Shown piece by piece: positions 401-23,824 of a stretch of DNA of 23,824 nucleotides. Source of the stretch: a virus; the IMG/VR virus record IMGVR_UViG_3300029923_000106, positions 1-23,824 of that record; one strand, 5' to 3'. The position numbers and the translations under genes were made by a program. Numbering within the stretch: position 1 is the stretch's first letter; each line of letters opens with the position of its first letter. The notes below the pieces were generated by a model. The model did no database searches. It was not told the origin of the DNA and saw nothing but the letters and a program-made list of their open reading frames with translations.

Positions 401-476
401 AGGTGATCGTGATCATAGTCTTGGTCTGTCTTTTTGCTATGCGAATGAGGTGGTAAATGATAGCGGTGAGAGTGTT

Positions 477-532
477 CCCCTACAGGGGAAGAGATGTGCC
501 CCTGTAGGGGAAAACATCTACCCCTACAGGGG
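477..532. repeat. Three near-palindromic 12-mers at an exact 22-bp period
   Basis: CCCCTACAGGGG lies at 477-488, its reverse complement CCCCTGTAGGGG at 499-510, and CCCCTACAGGGG again at 521-532. Each unit has palindromic arms CCCCT/AGGGG around a two-base centre, and successive units alternate orientation. The unit starts are exactly 22 bp apart, about two helical turns, so bound proteins would sit on one DNA face. GTT before the first unit and GAAC after the third extend the outer symmetry. A phased operator or iteron cluster is the likeliest reading. The array sits in a stretch (401-591) where I see no convincing gene. Confidence 0.75.
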
Positions 533-591
533 GAACATAAGAGAGGTGTTCTTTTGGATTGCGTGAGGTTAGCGGTTGGAAAGGTGGATTT

Positions 592-19532: not shown

Positions 19533-19772
19533 ATGGGCGTAAACTTCTTGGAAATAATGAAATATGTAATCACGGCGGTAATATCAACCCTCTGTGCTTA
19601 CTTCTCAATACAAAAGGACCTGGCACTCGCAAAACAGCGTATTGCCAATCTGGAGAGCAGGACGGACTCGCACAGCAAGAAGATAGACAATATCTTGAGC
19701 GGGGTAAATGACATTAAAGAAATGCTGGCTGAGATCAGAACTGAACTAAAATATAAGGAGGATAAGAAATGA
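19533..19772 (+). CDS. Membrane-anchored coiled-coil protein
   Basis: ATG 19533 is chosen; the upstream ATG 19506 lies within the promoter. The 79-aa product has one hydrophobic helix (about residues 9-25, YVITAVISTLCAYFSI) and then a heptad-like coiled coil (LAKQRIANLESRTDSHSKKIDNILSGVNDIKEML). It closely resembles small phage haemolysin/XhlA-like or holin-accessory proteins. It precedes and overlaps the endolysin, so a lysis or membrane-tethering role is likely. SD for the next gene, AAGGAGGATAAGAA, lies in its last codons. Confidence 0.6.
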   Translation: MGVNFLEIMKYVITAVISTLCAYFSIQKDLALAKQRIANLESRTDSHSKKIDNILSGVNDIKEMLAEIRTELKYKEDKK

Positions 19773-20227
19773 AGTATTTCACAATTACAGAGATGTACGG
19801 CAGCGCAACGGCAAAGACGAAGGGTATAGACAATACTCCGGGTGCACTGGTGAAAGAGAACCTCACAGCGCTGGTGGAAAATGTGCTCGATCCGCTGAGA
19901 GCTGCATATAAGAAGCCCATCAAGGTGAACTGCGGGTACCGGTGCCCGGAACTAAACAAAGCAGTGGGCGGTGTGGCATCATCACAACACCTGACAGGAC
20001 AGGCGGCAGACATTACGGGAGGAAGTCCGGAGGAGAACAAGAAGCTATTCAATCTGATCATGATGTTGTTACCTTTCGATCAGGTGATCTACGAATTCGG
20101 GGGTCAGTGGGTGCATGTATCTTATTCTACTCGCAACAGACACCAAGCTCTTATGTCATATAAACAAAATGGAGTAACTAAATATGCAAAATATGCTGAA
20201 AACAATAATAGCCAAGTGGCGAAGTGA
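19769..20227 (+). CDS. Peptidase M15-type endolysin
   Basis: The 152-aa protein has the M15_3 zinc-peptidase signature SxHxxGxAxD (SQHLTGQAAD, with H74 and D81) and the third ligand in WVHVS (H116). CGYRCPELNKAVGG at 55-68 matches the family's NSGYRxPxxNxxVGG block. It should cleave peptide stems of peptidoglycan (L-Ala-D-Glu or DD-carboxypeptidase type) at lysis. No signal peptide, so release depends on a holin; the two-TM protein at 20184 overlaps its end. It follows a strong SD within the previous gene. Confidence 0.88.
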   Translation: MKYFTITEMYGSATAKTKGIDNTPGALVKENLTALVENVLDPLRAAYKKPIKVNCGYRCPELNKAVGGVASSQHLTGQAADITGGSPEENKKLFNLIMMLLPFDQVIYEFGGQWVHVSYSTRNRHQALMSYKQNGVTKYAKYAENNNSQVAK

Positions 20228-20453
20228 GACACCTCTCGCAGCACGAATAGTGCGAAATACAGCAGCTACAATAGCAGCTGCATTACCTACTGCATATATA
20301 ACTGTCACAGGTATGGGTATAACGCTACCTGAGACATGGCAATACATCATAGGAGGTGTTACATTAGCCTCTGTCCTGATAACCGGAATCGCAGGAACTA
20401 AGGAGACTAATAACGCAAAAGCAAATAGACAAAATACTGACTTAAAAAATTAA
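20184..20453 (+). CDS. Two-TM holin candidate
   Basis: 89 aa with a basic N-terminus (MLKTIIAKWRSET) and two hydrophobic segments at about 22-46 and 52-71, separated by a short turn. A hydrophilic tail follows (NNAKANRQNTDLKN). Overlap with the end of the endolysin gene and class-II-like topology make a holin the best guess, but no sequence family is recognised. An alternative start is ATG 20193. Confidence 0.6.
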   Translation: MQNMLKTIIAKWRSETPLAARIVRNTAATIAAALPTAYITVTGMGITLPETWQYIIGGVTLASVLITGIAGTKETNNAKANRQNTDLKN

Positions 20454-20457
20454 AATT

Positions 20458-20673
20458 ATGCCAAAAGATTATTTAGAGAGAATGAAATCTGAAGAAACTG
20501 AACTTTCTTCAAAGTTAGAAAAAATAGAGAATTTTTTCCATACGGAAACCTATGAAGGTTTGTCTAAGCAAAAACAAAACTTATTGTGCGCTCAATATGG
20601 AGCCATGATAGCATATCAAAGAATACTTTTTGAACGAATCAGAGTAGAAAATGAAATAACCCCTGCATCATGA
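20458..20673 (+). CDS. crAss001_48-like small protein
   Basis: The 71-aa sequence (DYLERMKSEETELSSKLEKIENFF, then a loop ending LSKQKQNLLCAQYGAMIAYQRILFERI) has the two-helix pattern I recall for crAss001_48-related proteins, widespread in gut phages and of unknown function. It is probably a helical hairpin. It lies between the holin and spanin candidates and overlaps the latter as ATGA. Confidence 0.65.
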   Translation: MPKDYLERMKSEETELSSKLEKIENFFHTETYEGLSKQKQNLLCAQYGAMIAYQRILFERIRVENEITPAS

Positions 20674-21272
20674 AATTAAAAATCATCCTTATCTCAATAG
20701 CGGTATTAGTAGTTTTAGTTGGAAGTCTCGTGTGGTCGTTGTCGGCTTTGCAGAAATGCAGAAAAGACAACGATCGTCTCGAGACAAACCAGACGGCTCT
20801 AATGTCCGGAGTAACTCAGTACAAGACTTCTTCCGGAAAATGGGCTGCTAAAGCAACTGCCCTTACTCTCACGGCTTCTGAATTTAAGAATAGTAATGAT
20901 TCCCTTTTGTCTGTCATCAAAGAACTTGGCATAAAGGCAAAGAGAACATTAGAAGCTTCTCAGACGGCTTCATCTACGGATATCCCCCTTCAGTTGCATG
21001 CTAAAGATAGTATTGTCTACGTAAATGGGCATACAGACACACTCAAGTGTATGGAATACCACGATCTCTGGACAGATTTCTCTGGATGCCTCCAGAAAAG
21101 CAACTTTACAGGATACATACAGAATCGTGATACCCTCTACCATATCCTCCATAACATACCGAAGCATTTTTTATTCTTTAGGTTTGGAAGTAAATCGATA
21201 CAGCTGGATGTTGTATCTTCAAACCCGCATACCAAAATCGTTTATACAAAAATAATTCGTTTAAGTAAATAA
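20670..21272 (+). CDS. Spanin-like (DUF6549-like) membrane protein
   Basis: 200 aa with an N-terminal membrane anchor (residues 4-24), then a periplasmic helical region (KCRKDNDRLETNQTALMSGVTQYKTSSGKWAAKATALTLTASEFK) and a beta-type C-terminal part. Anchor plus coiled coil next to endolysin and holin genes is the usual inner-membrane spanin layout. The DRLETNQTALMS block recalls DUF6549 proteins of Bacteroidetes phages. Role inferred: outer-membrane disruption at lysis. It ends 14 bases before the Csf1-like gene, with no promoter in between. Confidence 0.6.
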   Translation: MKLKIILISIAVLVVLVGSLVWSLSALQKCRKDNDRLETNQTALMSGVTQYKTSSGKWAAKATALTLTASEFKNSNDSLLSVIKELGIKAKRTLEASQTASSTDIPLQLHAKDSIVYVNGHTDTLKCMEYHDLWTDFSGCLQKSNFTGYIQNRDTLYHILHNIPKHFLFFRFGSKSIQLDVVSSNPHTKIVYTKIIRLSK

Positions 21273-21286
21273 TCACGTAATTAAAA

Positions 21287-21973
21287 ATGAATGTATGTGA
21301 AAAGATATATGCCATAGGCGGGGAAGGGAAACGCTATGGTGAAGAGAAGGGGGTGTGTCGGATAACCGGGAAGGAGAGTACCGGTGTAGAATTCGACAAA
21401 TGGGTAAAAGATACTTTTAATGATCGGGACAGGCTGTATCCTGGCACGATCATTTCTAATGAGGCGATGTTCTGCTTTGACGAAGCATCGGAGATTGTGC
21501 AAAGAAAAACGGGAAGAGATAAGCCCCAGAGATTCCGTACTTACTCGCACATTATTAAGAATGGTGAGTGGTTCTGTCTTACAAAGGCGGATAAGAGAAA
21601 GATATTTGAACTTATCACAGAGGGTGCTGAGATGGTATGCTTGACAGAGACAGGGCAGAAACACATACTGTTTAAACATATGGATGGGATGTGGCAACTC
21701 GATGAGTTGCATGTTACTCCAGATATTGAGCTGCTCAAAAACTTACATGAATGTATGTGCGGACTTCTTAACCTTCAGTTCTCGCAGACAGAAGTGATCA
21801 CTGGGAATTACAGTCCAGGACGGATTATGAAAGCGGGACTTAAGAACTGGATGGCTTTAGAAAGAGAGATAAGGGAATATCGAGGTAGAGAGATATTCGA
21901 CTTTGCCTCATTTATGCTTTATTCTGATAAACAGGAGACGGACGGACCTGTAAGCAATCCGGACGATAAATGA
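21287..21973 (+). CDS. csf1: Csf1-like type IV CRISPR-Cas protein
   Basis: The 228-aa protein matches my memory of Csf1, the large-subunit-like component of type IV effector complexes. It has a cysteine start to a zinc-finger-like region (CRITG at 24-28), FDKWVKDTFNDRD at 36-48, FCFDEASE at 62-69, then the run RFRTYSHIIKNGEWFCLTKADKRKI (about 82-106). Typical Csf1 has two CxxC pairs. Here the positions read Cys24/Thr27 and Ala60/Cys63, so only half of the zinc ligands remain. It lies after the spanin-like gene and starts the module of four genes with csf2 and cysH. No csf3 (cas5), csf4 (dinG), cas6 or array is in the window. Confidence 0.75.
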   Translation: MNVCEKIYAIGGEGKRYGEEKGVCRITGKESTGVEFDKWVKDTFNDRDRLYPGTIISNEAMFCFDEASEIVQRKTGRDKPQRFRTYSHIIKNGEWFCLTKADKRKIFELITEGAEMVCLTETGQKHILFKHMDGMWQLDELHVTPDIELLKNLHECMCGLLNLQFSQTEVITGNYSPGRIMKAGLKNWMALEREIREYRGREIFDFASFMLYSDKQETDGPVSNPDDK

Positions 21974-21980
21974 TAAATCT

Positions 21981-22334
21981 ATGGAAATAAATCAAGAGAC
22001 AGTCGCGGAGAAACTCCTTTGGGGACTCTGGCGCAGTATTACGGAGGATTACAAAATGCAGTATCCTCGTGTGATATGGGAACAATTTGAGAATGCTATA
22101 CGGTCTGCGAGTTATACAGACTCGTTGAAAGTATTCCTTACAAACTTTCAGCGTCGTATTCCTGTAGAAATACAGGCACAATATGGACGTGACATCCTCG
22201 CTATTGTTGATTCAGGCGAAGATGAACAAGTGCTGAACTGGCTGAGAAGTGAAAGCACTTACCTCACCATGATCGTGAGACTGAAAAACCAAGAAAGGAA
22301 AGAAAATATAAAATTTGAAAGGGGAGAAATATGA
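21981..22334 (+). CDS. Cas11-like small subunit candidate
   Basis: A 117-aa protein, predicted almost entirely helical (ETVAEKLLWGLWRSITEDYK, EQFENAIRSASYTDSLKVFLTNF, then DEQVLNWLRSESTYLTMIVRL). Size, all-helical character and position between csf1 and csf2 fit the type IV-B small subunit (Cas11), which lines the belly of the effector filament. The sequence is too diverged for me to call by motif, so this rests mainly on context. It starts seven bases after csf1, and its stop overlaps the csf2 start as ATGA behind GGGGAG. Confidence 0.55.
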   Translation: MEINQETVAEKLLWGLWRSITEDYKMQYPRVIWEQFENAIRSASYTDSLKVFLTNFQRRIPVEIQAQYGRDILAIVDSGEDEQVLNWLRSESTYLTMIVRLKNQERKENIKFERGEI

Positions 22335-23239
22335 AGACATACGTATTAGAAGGAGTGTGTACCGCCTTGAGCAGCATCTGCCATAATGGTGGTGAGAAAA
22401 ATGGTACTATCGTGCAACTTCGCAGAGAGAAGTTTGTACAAGAAAACGGAAAAATCGTAGAGGTACCGGTGATATCCGGTAACAGTATCAGGGGCAAGCT
22501 CAGAGACCTAGCAGCTATCGAGATACTGACAAAAAAGGATGGTGTAAAAGTGCAGGTAGATGCGGATAGCTTCAATCTGTTATTCTCCGGTGGATCACTT
22601 GAGAGTACCGGTGGAAAGAACCTAGATATCGAAAAGGTGAGACAGTTGAGAAAAGAAATTCCGATGATCAGCGTACTTGGCTGTTCAATTGGAAATGTAA
22701 TTCTTCCGGGAAAAGTAAGTATCGGGAAGATGATCCCAATCTGTAAAGAGACGTTGCACCTTATTCCATCCCAGTTTCATGGGGATGATGAAATAAAATC
22801 CATCTGGTCATACTGTCAAGTGGAAATGAACACCAGACGGGATGATACGAAGGATGAGAATAAACGAGAGTTTATCAAGCAGGAGCATCTGACGGATGAC
22901 CTGAAGGGAGGTCAGATGATGTATAACACAGAAACGCTGGCAGCAGGTACCAGGTTCTACTGGAAAGTTTGCCTGATGGATACAACAGACATCGAGACCG
23001 GTGCTTTCCTTTCTACGATCCAATCATGGGCGAACCAGGCAAGCCAGGTTGGTGGTAATGGACGTGTTGGTATGGGCCATCTTAAAATAGATTTGTCTCA
23101 TACTACCGTAGTGGACTCAGAAGTGGAGTTTAACAACTCAGATTTTGTAAAGTATATCGATGCTGCAAATGAGGCAAAGAAGGATGTAACAGAATTCTTT
23201 GAAACAGGAGGCTCGAAAAAGCTCTTTGTAAATGGATAA
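22331..23239 (+). CDS. csf2: Csf2 (Cas7-like) backbone protein, type IV
   Basis: The 302-aa protein shows the Csf2 pattern: LEGVCTALSSICHNGGEKNGT (6-26), LRREKFVQENGKIVEVPVISGNSIRGKLRDLAA with the SGNSIRGKLRD block at 49-59, LFSGG at 84-88, IPMISVLGCSIGNVILPGKVSIGKMIPI at 110-137, and the RAMP-type glycine loop GGNGRVGMGHLKID at 241-254. Csf2 polymerises along guide RNA to form the type IV filament. Length is near the usual for the family. It overlaps the gene on each side, by four bases with the Cas11-like gene and eight with cysH, so the subunits are probably made together. Confidence 0.85.
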   Translation: MKTYVLEGVCTALSSICHNGGEKNGTIVQLRREKFVQENGKIVEVPVISGNSIRGKLRDLAAIEILTKKDGVKVQVDADSFNLLFSGGSLESTGGKNLDIEKVRQLRKEIPMISVLGCSIGNVILPGKVSIGKMIPICKETLHLIPSQFHGDDEIKSIWSYCQVEMNTRRDDTKDENKREFIKQEHLTDDLKGGQMMYNTETLAAGTRFYWKVCLMDTTDIETGAFLSTIQSWANQASQVGGNGRVGMGHLKIDLSHTTVVDSEVEFNNSDFVKYIDAANEAKKDVTEFFETGGSKKLFVNG

Positions 23240-23824
23240 AAAAACAGCCTTGCTATACGCAAGGCTGAAACAGTATAAAGCCCTTGTTAACAAAACGAGT
23301 GGCTTTATAAGGTGGGCGTTAGCACAGGTTAATAATCCATACGTGGCATGCTCTTTCGGAAAAGACTCGAGCGTTATGCTTGACTTGATACTGAAACATA
23401 AGAAAGATGTTCGAGTTCTTTTTGCAACATCTACAGAGACATTTATAATTGATAATTATGAGGATGTTATCCGTCAGTGGGGTAAACTGAATCTTGAAAT
23501 ACTTCATTGCGAAAGGGAAAGTGACGGACGAACTCATACAAGCGATAAGATGAGTTGTTATTATGACTATGATAGTTATTTTGTAGGAATCAGAGCAGAG
23601 GAGAGTTCGGCCAGAAGGATGTCTTTGAAATTTCAGGGAATGTTCTATAAAAAGAAAAATGGTAAAATACGCATTTCTCCTCTTGCAGAATGGACGGATA
23701 AGGATATTATTACTTATATCTTGAGTAATGATTTGCCGTTGCTAGACACCTACAAAGTATTTACAGAGAAAGCAAGGACAACATCTGTTGTTCCGACAGT
23801 CGGAAGAGAGAGAATGCTTTCAAT
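23232..23824 (+). CDS. CysH-like PAPS reductase-family protein (truncated by window)
   Basis: ATG 23232 overlaps the csf2 end; 197 codons are visible with no stop before the window ends. The PP-loop ATP-pyrophosphatase signature is CSFGKDSSVML (40-50). GIRAEESSARR (119-129) and ISPLAEWTDKDIITYIL (148-164) follow, as in phosphoadenosine phosphosulfate reductases and related phage proteins. In metabolism such enzymes reduce PAPS or APS; in type IV-B loci a CysH-like gene of unknown role is a recognised companion. Its direct overlap with csf2 supports that association. The C-terminal ECG-type redox motif, if present, would lie outside the window. Confidence 0.85.
   Translation, partial: MDKKTALLYARLKQYKALVNKTSGFIRWALAQVNNPYVACSFGKDSSVMLDLILKHKKDVRVLFATSTETFIIDNYEDVIRQWGKLNLEILHCERESDGRTHTSDKMSCYYDYDSYFVGIRAEESSARRMSLKFQGMFYKKKNGKIRISPLAEWTDKDIITYILSNDLPLLDTYKVFTEKARTTSVVPTVGRERMLS
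23238..23267 (-). terminator. Minus-strand intrinsic terminator pattern at the csf2/cysH junction
   Basis: CAGCCTTGC at 23245-23253 pairs perfectly over 9 bp with GCAAGGCTG at 23259-23267 around TATAC. Seven A residues at 23238-23244 lie on its left, so on the minus strand the hairpin is followed by a T tract. On the plus strand there is no T tract. It lies inside the first codons of cysH and would stop antisense transcription entering csf2. Confidence 0.5.

Follow-up and report, generated by a model that had tools for sequence, protein, structure and literature searches.

A Complete Type IV-B Csf Module in a Tailed Phage and Repeated Exchange of the Gene at Its CysH Position

Introduction

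Type IV-B CRISPR-Cas is known mostly from plasmids, and type IV systems in phages and viruses have already been published (PMC10848311, PMC11656645). What type IV-B does, and why it keeps company with CysH, is treated in this literature as an open question (PMC7937560, PMC8175902, PMC11656645). The type IV-B system reported for the Bathyarchaeia viruses 'Fuxiviridae' is virus-borne and has CysH adjoining Csf3 (PMC10848311), as does the locus presented here; according to the same source, however, it belongs to archaeal viruses and has a two-repeat mini-array, whereas our window and its twin contig L002 have no array of three or more repeats, two-repeat arrays having been searched in a part of our loci. 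New here is the comparative part, i.e., the exchange of the gene in the cysH position; judging from titles and abstracts of the open-access literature outside bioRxiv, we recognized no report of CysH replacement in type IV-B.

Results

Genes of the module

The window, which is the whole stretch of DNA analyzed, is an entire viral record of 23,824 bases (G000). The features concerned are as follows, the last two being those of contig L002.

19769..20227, + strand: M15 endolysin gene, upstream of the module (PHROG 894, 1.5e-37)
20670..21272, + strand: DUF6549 gene (PF20186, 3e-51), with a weak Rz-spanin-like match (PHROG 214, Rz-like, 0.0069)
21287..21973, + strand: csf1, Cas8-like, 228 aa (PADLOC typeIV_Cas8, 8.5e-10; alignments with relatives)
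21981..22334, + strand: cas11, small subunit, 117 aa (PADLOC typeIV_Cas11, 1e-21)
22331..23239, + strand: csf2, Cas7-like backbone, 302 aa (PADLOC Csf2_0_IV, 4.7e-67)
23232..23822, + strand: cysH-like PP-loop gene (SFGKDS), the exchangeable position (PF01507, 3.6e-17)
L002, 10902-11558: complete cysH, 218 aa
L002, 11555-12211: csf3, directly after cysH (PADLOC typeIV_Cas5, 2.6e-46)

Positions 21287-23822 carry the csf1, cas11, csf2, and cysH-like genes of a type IV-B CRISPR effector module. The first-pass annotation, made from the sequence alone, had proposed such a phage-borne module with CysH, and this was borne out: the four ORFs lie on the + strand where it had placed them, its motifs SGNSIRGKLRD and GGNGRVGMG are present in the csf2 translation, and the profile searches that it had suggested gave PADLOC matches for Csf1, Cas11, Csf2, and, in L002, Csf3, together with PF01507 for CysH. 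Its two most exposed claims, a Cas7-like protein at 22331-23239 and a Csf1 relationship at 21287-21973, were both upheld by PADLOC. The genes are tightly packed, with a gap of 7 bases between csf1 and cas11 and overlaps of 4 bases between cas11 and csf2 and of 8 bases between csf2 and the cysH-like gene. The NCBIfam profile cas7_csf2 (TIGR03115) matches csf2 at 7.8e-26 with 91 bits, below its curated cut-off of 130, and the Csf2 family profile finds the solved IV-B Csf2 (7jhy, 1.3e-27) and a chain named Cas7c (11fs, 1e-28). Because Pfam, PHROGs, and NCBIfam have no match for Csf1 or Cas11, these two assignments depend on PADLOC and the comparison with relatives. According to the alignment, the zinc finger of the window's Csf1 is degenerate (CRIT...ISNE), while CxxC...CxxC is kept in some relatives. 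No protein of the module matched a nuclease family.

The window's cysH-like ORF stops at the end of the record after 197 aa. Its positions 20078..23824 (3,747 bases) are identical to L002; the alignment as a whole spans 19562-23824 with 111 mismatches, all within 19566-20077, so that exact identity starts inside the M15 endolysin gene, after 20077, and no further contiguous alignment was found upstream. Since L002 runs on into the full cysH and csf3, followed by a terminator-like hairpin, the module is complete and not minimal. The absence of csf3 noted in the first reading holds for the window itself but reflects the end of the record, and the suspicion of an unusually minimal, csf3-less assembly is ruled out by the extension past 23824 through L002. 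The locus is thus a complete type IV-B Csf module of a tailed phage.

Arrays, Cas1, Cas6, and helicase

A script requiring three exact 18-mers found no CRISPR array of three or more repeats in the window or in the examined half of the L002 record, both of which are fragments, and found such arrays in 3 of 151 partly overlapping loci. A search for two-copy repeats, which covered 63 loci and leaves room for two-repeat mini-arrays elsewhere, flagged L004/L005 and L009; the L004/L005 repeat is a 56-bp tandem of near-identical units, and an array was rejected for the window, L002, and L004. Rfam gave no match in the window, L002, L004, L025, or L012. Neither Cas1 (PF01867) nor a DinG-type helicase (PF13307) was found in 13 records including the window and L002, nor was Cas6 (PF10040) found in the latter two, these absences being provisional in fragments. 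The first-pass annotation, which had noted neither an array nor Cas6 in the window and had described type IV-B loci in general as lacking arrays, adaptation genes, and the DinG helicase, agrees with these searches of both contigs. Cas6 exceeded the cut-off in 2 of 15 records (L021 and L043) and was found in 2 of the 68 loci of the Csf1 scan; the relatives carrying it are L021, L043, and L045.

Neighborhood of the module

The start of csf1 is 14 bases past the end of the DUF6549 gene, and the position downstream of lysis genes pointed out in the first-pass annotation is real. Only this phage and its twin L002 were seen to have the module in a lysis operon. When the flanks of nine close loci were compared in all pairs, only three matches were obtained: one of 752 bases between L003 and L020, overlapping a methylase-like ORF, and two of 101 and 39 bases between L004 and L025, the longer containing a terminator-like hairpin. 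With so few matches, expression linked to lysis is not a general property of such modules, and a lysis-operon location was discarded as a common feature, neighboring genes having been judged by eye. A conserved RNA element in the flanks was likewise rejected on these comparisons and on Rfam. The window has no tRNA gene.

Census of the cysH position

Among the 68 viral loci having both csf2 and csf3, a CysH-like gene is present in 61, and in all seven remaining loci another enzyme gene takes its position: a SAM methyltransferase (three loci), DUF3440 plus ParB, a pair of glucosyltransferase-like (GT-like) and TGT-like genes, a radical-SAM gene, and an N6/N4 methylase. A SpoU methylase occurs in relatives beside CysH, not instead of it. 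Searching the whole records of these seven loci, we found no PF01507 in six and, in the seventh (L097), only that of its DUF3440 protein; CysH is absent from the whole records of relatives L007, L010, and L012 and from the contig of L025. The enzyme gene lies between csf2 and csf3 in 29 of the 68 loci and after csf3 in 17. On plasmids, a PAPS-family gene was present within about 5 kb in 10 of 10 inspected regions, picked for diversity from the 69 plasmid records that matched Csf2. One viral scan yielded 92 relatives, of which 80 were kept. Within Bacteroidales, the order of G002, Csf3 of this kind occurs in 2 of 393 genomes, both among the relatives already found. The PP-loop SxGK[DQ]S is intact in all 66 CysH proteins scoring at least 80 bits, and the GxRxxE..R pattern is missing in 13 of them.

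The gene in this position has been exchanged repeatedly while its csf neighbors stay alike. L004 and L025 are 85% identical in Csf1, 86% in Cas11, 89% in Csf2, and 90% in Csf3, and have CysH and a methyltransferase, respectively, at the slot, where identity across the exchange is 12% vs 85–90% for the neighboring csf genes. The Csf2 of L127, which has an N6/N4 methylase and no CysH, is 98% identical to that of L130 and 96% to that of L133, both having CysH; and one cluster linked at 90% Csf2 identity unites a methyltransferase (L010), CysH (L076 and L077), and DUF3440, ParB, and CysH together (L075). In the tree, at least three changes between methyltransferase and other genes were counted over 23 rows, change counts for CysH type a or b using the 12 rows so labelled; all are minima without a shuffle control, and the tree has poorly supported deep forks and a very long branch for L009. 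The exchanged genes mostly overlap the stop and start codons of csf genes.

Identity and background of the substitute enzymes

The slot methyltransferase, a protein of 156 aa, has a predicted class-I SAM fold (pLDDT 82.7, Foldseek 3.1e-7); the top structural matches are peptide and small-molecule methyltransferases, with TYW2 at rank 11, and the family profile finds TYW2 at 1.9e-4. In Pfam, the L012 copy exceeds the RrnaAD cut-off (3.1e-6), the L007 copy has no family, and the L010 and L025 copies have none over cut-off; dN/dS for the last pair is about 0.12. Other Pfam matches over cut-off are SpoU (1.4e-8 and 2.2e-11), N6_N4_Mtase (3.5e-8, 4.3e-8, and 5.4e-8), DUF3440 (9.2e-25 and 2e-36), and Radical_SAM (6.3e-8); ParB_N in L097 is below cut-off. 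The TGT-like label comes from PHROG 887 (7e-4 and 0.0068); a structural assignment was abandoned, the model (pLDDT 48) being unusable and no PDB sequence matching. The GT-like copies of L026 and L082 are 45% identical, with a PHROG match (5e-5) for the former and none for the latter, and the GT-like/TGT-like pair of L082 has no Pfam match. Several accessory profiles were seeded with loci that they later found, so those rows are not independent evidence, and the independent support is that of the Pfam matches.

As a background, the 68 loci had 783 ORFs of at least 100 aa that are not part of the operons; these included one cysH, one ParB, and 13 N6/N4 methylases and no match to the methyltransferase, SpoU, DUF3440, TGT-like, GT-like, or radical-SAM profiles, a rough count since the profiles were seeded mostly from slot genes and the class 'modifying enzyme' was assigned after seeing the genes. 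Because N6/N4 methylases are thus common in these contigs, replacement by one is weak evidence by itself. Because the enzymes mix RNA-type and DNA-type activities, no single substrate emerges.

Discussion

In our proposal, a IV-B complex is a platform loaded with RNA for an interchangeable nucleic-acid-modifying enzyme and performs RNA-guided modification instead of cutting; we give this reading nearly even chances. Judging from the solved homologous complex, Csf2 and Cas11 would polymerize on an RNA of about 55–60 nt, and the filament ends would presumably be occupied by Csf3 and Csf1. The working enzyme would be the product of the gene between csf2 and csf3. In the window, this is a CysH-like PP-loop protein, which is likely to adenylate its substrate using ATP. 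In relatives, the role would fall to a SAM methyltransferase, to a PP-loop protein of the DUF3440 type accompanied by ParB, to a pair of TGT-like and glucosyltransferase-like proteins, to a radical-SAM enzyme, to an N6/N4 methylase, or, beside CysH, to SpoU. The complex, using its RNA as a putative guide, would find a nucleic acid by base pairing and present it to the slot enzyme, presumably in physical contact, for modification; the phage may use this against host defense or rival elements.

The solved complex contained heterogeneous RNA, which fits equally a sponge (PMC7937560). On that account, which we consider unlikely, the Csf filament would coat short RNAs regardless of their sequence, thereby starving CRISPR or another RNA-guided defense of the host, and the enzyme would do a separate counter-defense job. 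Sponging has already been proposed on the basis of heterogeneous RNA bound by the recombinant complex (PMC7937560, PMC8175902), and it agrees with the searches of the window and L002, which detected neither an array nor Cas6, but it leaves unexplained why an enzyme gene sits between two subunit genes in 29 of 68 loci, why CysH is present in 61, and why it is replaced rather than lost in 7 of 7.

Somewhat less probable still is that the csf2/csf3 junction is merely permissive to insertions, the enzymes belonging to the usual accessory gene content of phages and having no functional tie to Csf. Inserts do occur at other junctions: L025 has a 94-aa ORF between csf1 and cas11, and in L040 cas11 and csf2 are separated by a Vsr/DUF559-like gene. 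The slot itself contains a phosphatase-like gene in L040 and a weakly zinc-finger-like one in L042, and N6/N4 methylases abound in the contigs. Against this speak the association of a single enzyme family with most loci across gene orders, and with every plasmid region inspected, the overlap of exchanged genes with csf codons, and the methyltransferase, whose three records in the viral scan were all type IV-B (the scan missed L113, also IV-B). The poorest chance is given to interference by crosstalk: loaded with crRNAs taken from the host or from other elements, the complex would silence rival phages or plasmids in the manner of type IV-A, and the slot enzyme would tune or protect the RNA. Type IV-A represses transcription without cutting (PMC11656645), and a few relatives have Cas6 or arrays, but the window and L002 show neither and Cas6 is rare in the Csf1 scan.

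If the platform reading is true, it would offer a compact natural RNA-guided modification scaffold. Rather more tentatively, type IV-B may represent a third CRISPR-derived mode, distinct from cutting and going beyond silencing, in which an interchangeable enzyme (a PP-loop ATPase, a SAM or SpoU methyltransferase, a TGT-like plus GT-like pair, or a radical-SAM protein) would be directed by RNA to modify RNA or DNA chemically, in phages and plasmids. Natural CysH substitutes with known kinds of chemistry make the role of IV-B directly testable, because methyl transfer is easy to assay and CysH chemistry is not.

Comparison with known systems

Guide-RNA-directed modification is known from C/D and H/ACA RNPs, in which an RNA-bound scaffold carries a modifying enzyme; the likeness concerns the proposed working mode, and no homology is claimed. 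Type IV-A is defined by a DinG helicase and an array, neither of which was found in the window or L002. With the type IV-B of plasmids our module shares all five genes (csf3 through L002) and the Csf2 family profile match to 7jhy, and searches of the window and L002 fragments detected no array of three or more repeats, Cas1, or DinG-type helicase; unlike plasmid type IV-B, the module is phage-borne, has its enzyme gene between csf2 and csf3 in an exchangeable position, and has a degenerate Csf1 zinc finger. Skermania phage SPI1 (KR011061), an isolated phage, has csf2 and a CysH-like PF01507 protein (orf44) within orf40-44, as here, with csf1, cas11, and csf3 assigned by gene order and our own profiles; downstream of the module, at a distance of about 2.2 kb, it has genes for lysin and holin. 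It differs in that cysH follows csf3 and its Csf2 is 36% identical. All five genes of the SPI1 module are now annotated as hypothetical proteins, and if our proposal is true, this module would be one example of a class of modules serving phages as weapons or shields.

The csf module and its completion in a twin contig

The gene cluster of the window and its continuation in L002, a twin viral contig (IMGVR 3300030294_000082, 41.6 kb), are as follows.

Window 21287-23822, + strand: four tightly packed genes
L002 10902-11558: complete cysH
L002 11555-12211: csf3 (PADLOC typeIV_Cas5, 2.6e-46)
L002, after csf3: hairpin, then a U-rich stretch (z -7.1)

PADLOC placed the first three genes in type IV, as Csf1 (8.5e-10), Cas11 (1e-21) and Csf2 (4.7e-67), the last also matched by NCBIfam under its cut-off, and the fourth matched PAPS_reduct (PF01507, 3.6e-17); these matches bear out the first-pass annotation, which had named Csf1, a small protein, Csf2 and CysH. 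Csf1 and Cas11 of the window had no match in Pfam, PHROGs or NCBIfam. We hardly doubt that the module belongs to type IV-B. The window breaks off within cysH because it is the entire viral record of 23,824 bases, and the same annotation had held that the assembly would be unusually minimal if no csf3 lay downstream; extension through L002, to which window 20078-23824 is 100% identical, reaches csf3 and overturns that reading, and the module is complete. Cas6 had no match in the window or L002, no CRISPR array was seen in the window and the L002 stretch examined, and a search of 13 records for Cas1 and DinG-type helicase domains gave 0 matches to either.

Every one of the 111 mismatches in the 4,263-base alignment with L002 falls within 19566-20077, either ahead of the endolysin gene or in it, and inside this gene identity steps abruptly from ~78% to 100% at 20077/20078. 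Upstream of the alignment there is no contiguous match, just three short patches elsewhere. This pattern suggests that two otherwise different phages have in common one recently exchanged lysis-plus-csf segment; the switch would stem either from a recent recombination event between the phages or from chimeric assembly. A separate 92% identical block (window 475-547, L002 13990-14066), which in L002 has three 22-base units with the CCCCTAYAGGGG palindrome, has the look of a phage operator or origin and not of CRISPR.

Survey of related loci

Relatives were gathered by scans with Csf2, then Csf3 and lastly Csf1. The last scan found 92 relatives, of which 80 were kept; csf2 and csf3 are both present in 68, and in the other 12 one or the other was not recognised in the stretch examined. 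Most loci are metagenome fragments, and viral contigs may contain misassigned host or plasmid DNA. At 90% Csf2 identity the 68 loci fall into 50 clusters. The enzyme lies between csf2 and csf3, as in the window, in 29 loci and after csf3 (csf2-csf3-enzyme) in 17; csf1 is not first in 22, following the other genes on the same strand in 19 and lying on the opposite strand in three (L138, L148, L149). The two cell-genome relatives are a Bacteroidales MAG and a Massilibacteroides MAG, and window-type Csf3 occurs in just 2 of 393 genomes of the order of the Bacteroidales genome G002, both already known.

A csf1-cas11-csf2-csf3-cysH module has gone unrecognised in Skermania phage SPI1 (KR011061.1, 32609-36242), where each of the five genes is annotated as hypothetical. 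A clear CRISPR array of 11 exact 37-nt repeats and 10 different spacers (L144, 13049-13818) lies ~4.6 kb beyond csf1 of a IV-B locus ordered cas11-csf2-csf3-cysH-csf1, on a contig that may not be a phage. Mini-arrays of four similar repeats stand directly upstream of a lone csf1-like match in L108 (from 1456) and L109 (from 7715), where csf2 and csf3 were not recognised in the stretch examined; their first spacers differ and the others are identical, which suggests spacer turnover.

Enzymes at the cysH position

Of the 68 loci, 61 have a CysH-like gene, which in all except L118, L126 and L134 is no more than 600 bases away from a csf gene. The remaining seven carry other genes.

Genes at the cysH position in the CysH-less loci, classed only after being seen
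L010, L078 (L007 record), L085 (L012 record): methyltransferase of ~155 aa
L082: GT-like and TGT-like genes (both weak calls)
L097: DUF3440 protein and ParB-like gene
L101: radical SAM
L127: N6/N4 methylase

Searched over their whole length, six of the seven records contain no PF01507 protein, and in L097 the sole one is its DUF3440 protein. Cell-genome contig L025 has the methyltransferase, in line with the viral loci; L026, also from a cell genome, has a TGT-like/GT-like pair related to that of L082 (40% and 45% identical, order reversed) and another PF01507 protein ~36 kb off. L113 (7887-9513) holds a csf1-like ORF of 167 aa, the methyltransferase and csf3, beside which neither cas11 nor csf2 was recognised. 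The 68 loci also hold 783 ORFs of at least 100 aa that are not part of the operons. Profiles for the methyltransferase, SpoU, DUF3440, TGT-like, GT-like and radical-SAM genes matched none of these ORFs, cysH one, ParB one and N6/N4 methylase 13, a rough control only, since the profiles were seeded mostly from genes at this position. N6/N4 methylases are common in these contigs and prove little. As an observation, the pattern of exchangeable enzymes is solid.

Loci with SpoU methylases are L040 and L118, those with N6/N4 methylases L062, L127 and L134, and those with Cas6 L021, L043 and L045. DUF3440, ParB_N and CysH are consecutive in L006 by Pfam, and L134 has the same row by profiles built here, of which it is itself a seed. 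Ten plasmid regions were selected for diversity out of the 69 records in which Csf2 matched, and all 10 have a PAPS-family gene within ~5 kb. On a Natrinema plasmid the csf genes are followed by DUF3440, a ParB-like gene (below cut-off) and CysH. A Halomontanus plasmid carries DUF3440 and ParB together with an acetyltransferase and a PAPS-family gene, and an Actinarchaeum plasmid carries a ParB gene along with two PAPS-family genes.

The PP-loop SxGK[DQ]S is kept in all 66 CysH proteins scoring at least 80 bits (five with K-Q-S); 28 have a Cys within the last 45 residues, and no protein shows an ECGxH-like motif among its last 60. CysH of type IV-B has been called 'inactivated' (PMC11656645), which on this evidence can refer to reductase chemistry and not evidently to ATP use.

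The methyltransferase has a predicted class-I SAM fold (pLDDT 82.7; Foldseek best 3.1e-7), with peptide and small-molecule enzymes ranked first and TYW2 at rank 11. The L012 protein exceeds the RrnaAD cut-off (3.1e-6), that of L007 matched no Pfam family, and the family profile gave TYW2 at 1.9e-4 and Trm1 only at 0.29; judged by sequence, the enzyme tends toward RNA methyltransferases. A viral scan that missed L113 recovered the enzyme from three records, each of them IV-B, and a tblastn search of 50,697 phage records gave no match. Between L010 and L025, dN is 0.155 and dS 1.29, which indicates purifying selection.

Recent and repeated exchange

The csf proteins of L004 and L025 are 85% (Csf1), 86% (Cas11), 89% (Csf2) and 90% (Csf3) identical, despite which L004 has CysH and L025 the methyltransferase. 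Csf2 of L127 (N6/N4 methylase) is 98% and 96% identical to those of L130 and L133, which have CysH, and Csf2 identity of 90-91% connects L010 (methyltransferase) with L075 (DUF3440, ParB and CysH), L076 and L077 (both CysH). CysH of L006 is closer to L011 (73%) than to L004 (55%), opposite to its Csf2 (74% and 88%). A 26-row tree has at least three changes between the methyltransferase and other contents (23 rows counted) and at least three between two CysH types (12 rows counted). Judged from these comparisons, exchange is recent and repeated.

The second CysH type, with K-Q-S in place of K-D-S in the PP-loop, is scattered over the tree (L003, 4223-4960; L008, 6899-7636; L040, 10969-11712). 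The ~100 bases after csf3 in L004 (11208-11308) and L025 (10649-10746) contain a strong hairpin and are 91% alike, the sole other flanking match being 39 bases before csf1; these two stretches are probably the edges of a moving cassette.

Possible mechanism

An RNA target is suggested by the SpoU, TRM5-like and TGT-like genes, a DNA target by the N6/N4 methylases, ParB and the GT-like gene. By homology, Csf2 and Cas11 would form a filament on RNA, and the resulting RNA-loaded targeting scaffold would carry an interchangeable modifying enzyme; we infer its guide, its target, the enzyme-scaffold contact and its purpose. We tentatively consider this the best among the explanations considered, at slightly less than an even chance. 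The solved IV-B complex is reported to have contained heterogeneous RNA of 55-60 nt (PMC7937560), and Taylor et al. (PMC8175902) had put CysH forward as a modifier of the nucleic acid that the complex binds. The replacements at the cysH position, with varying chemistry on a constant scaffold, are as that idea predicts, and we therefore favour a scaffold for modifying enzymes.
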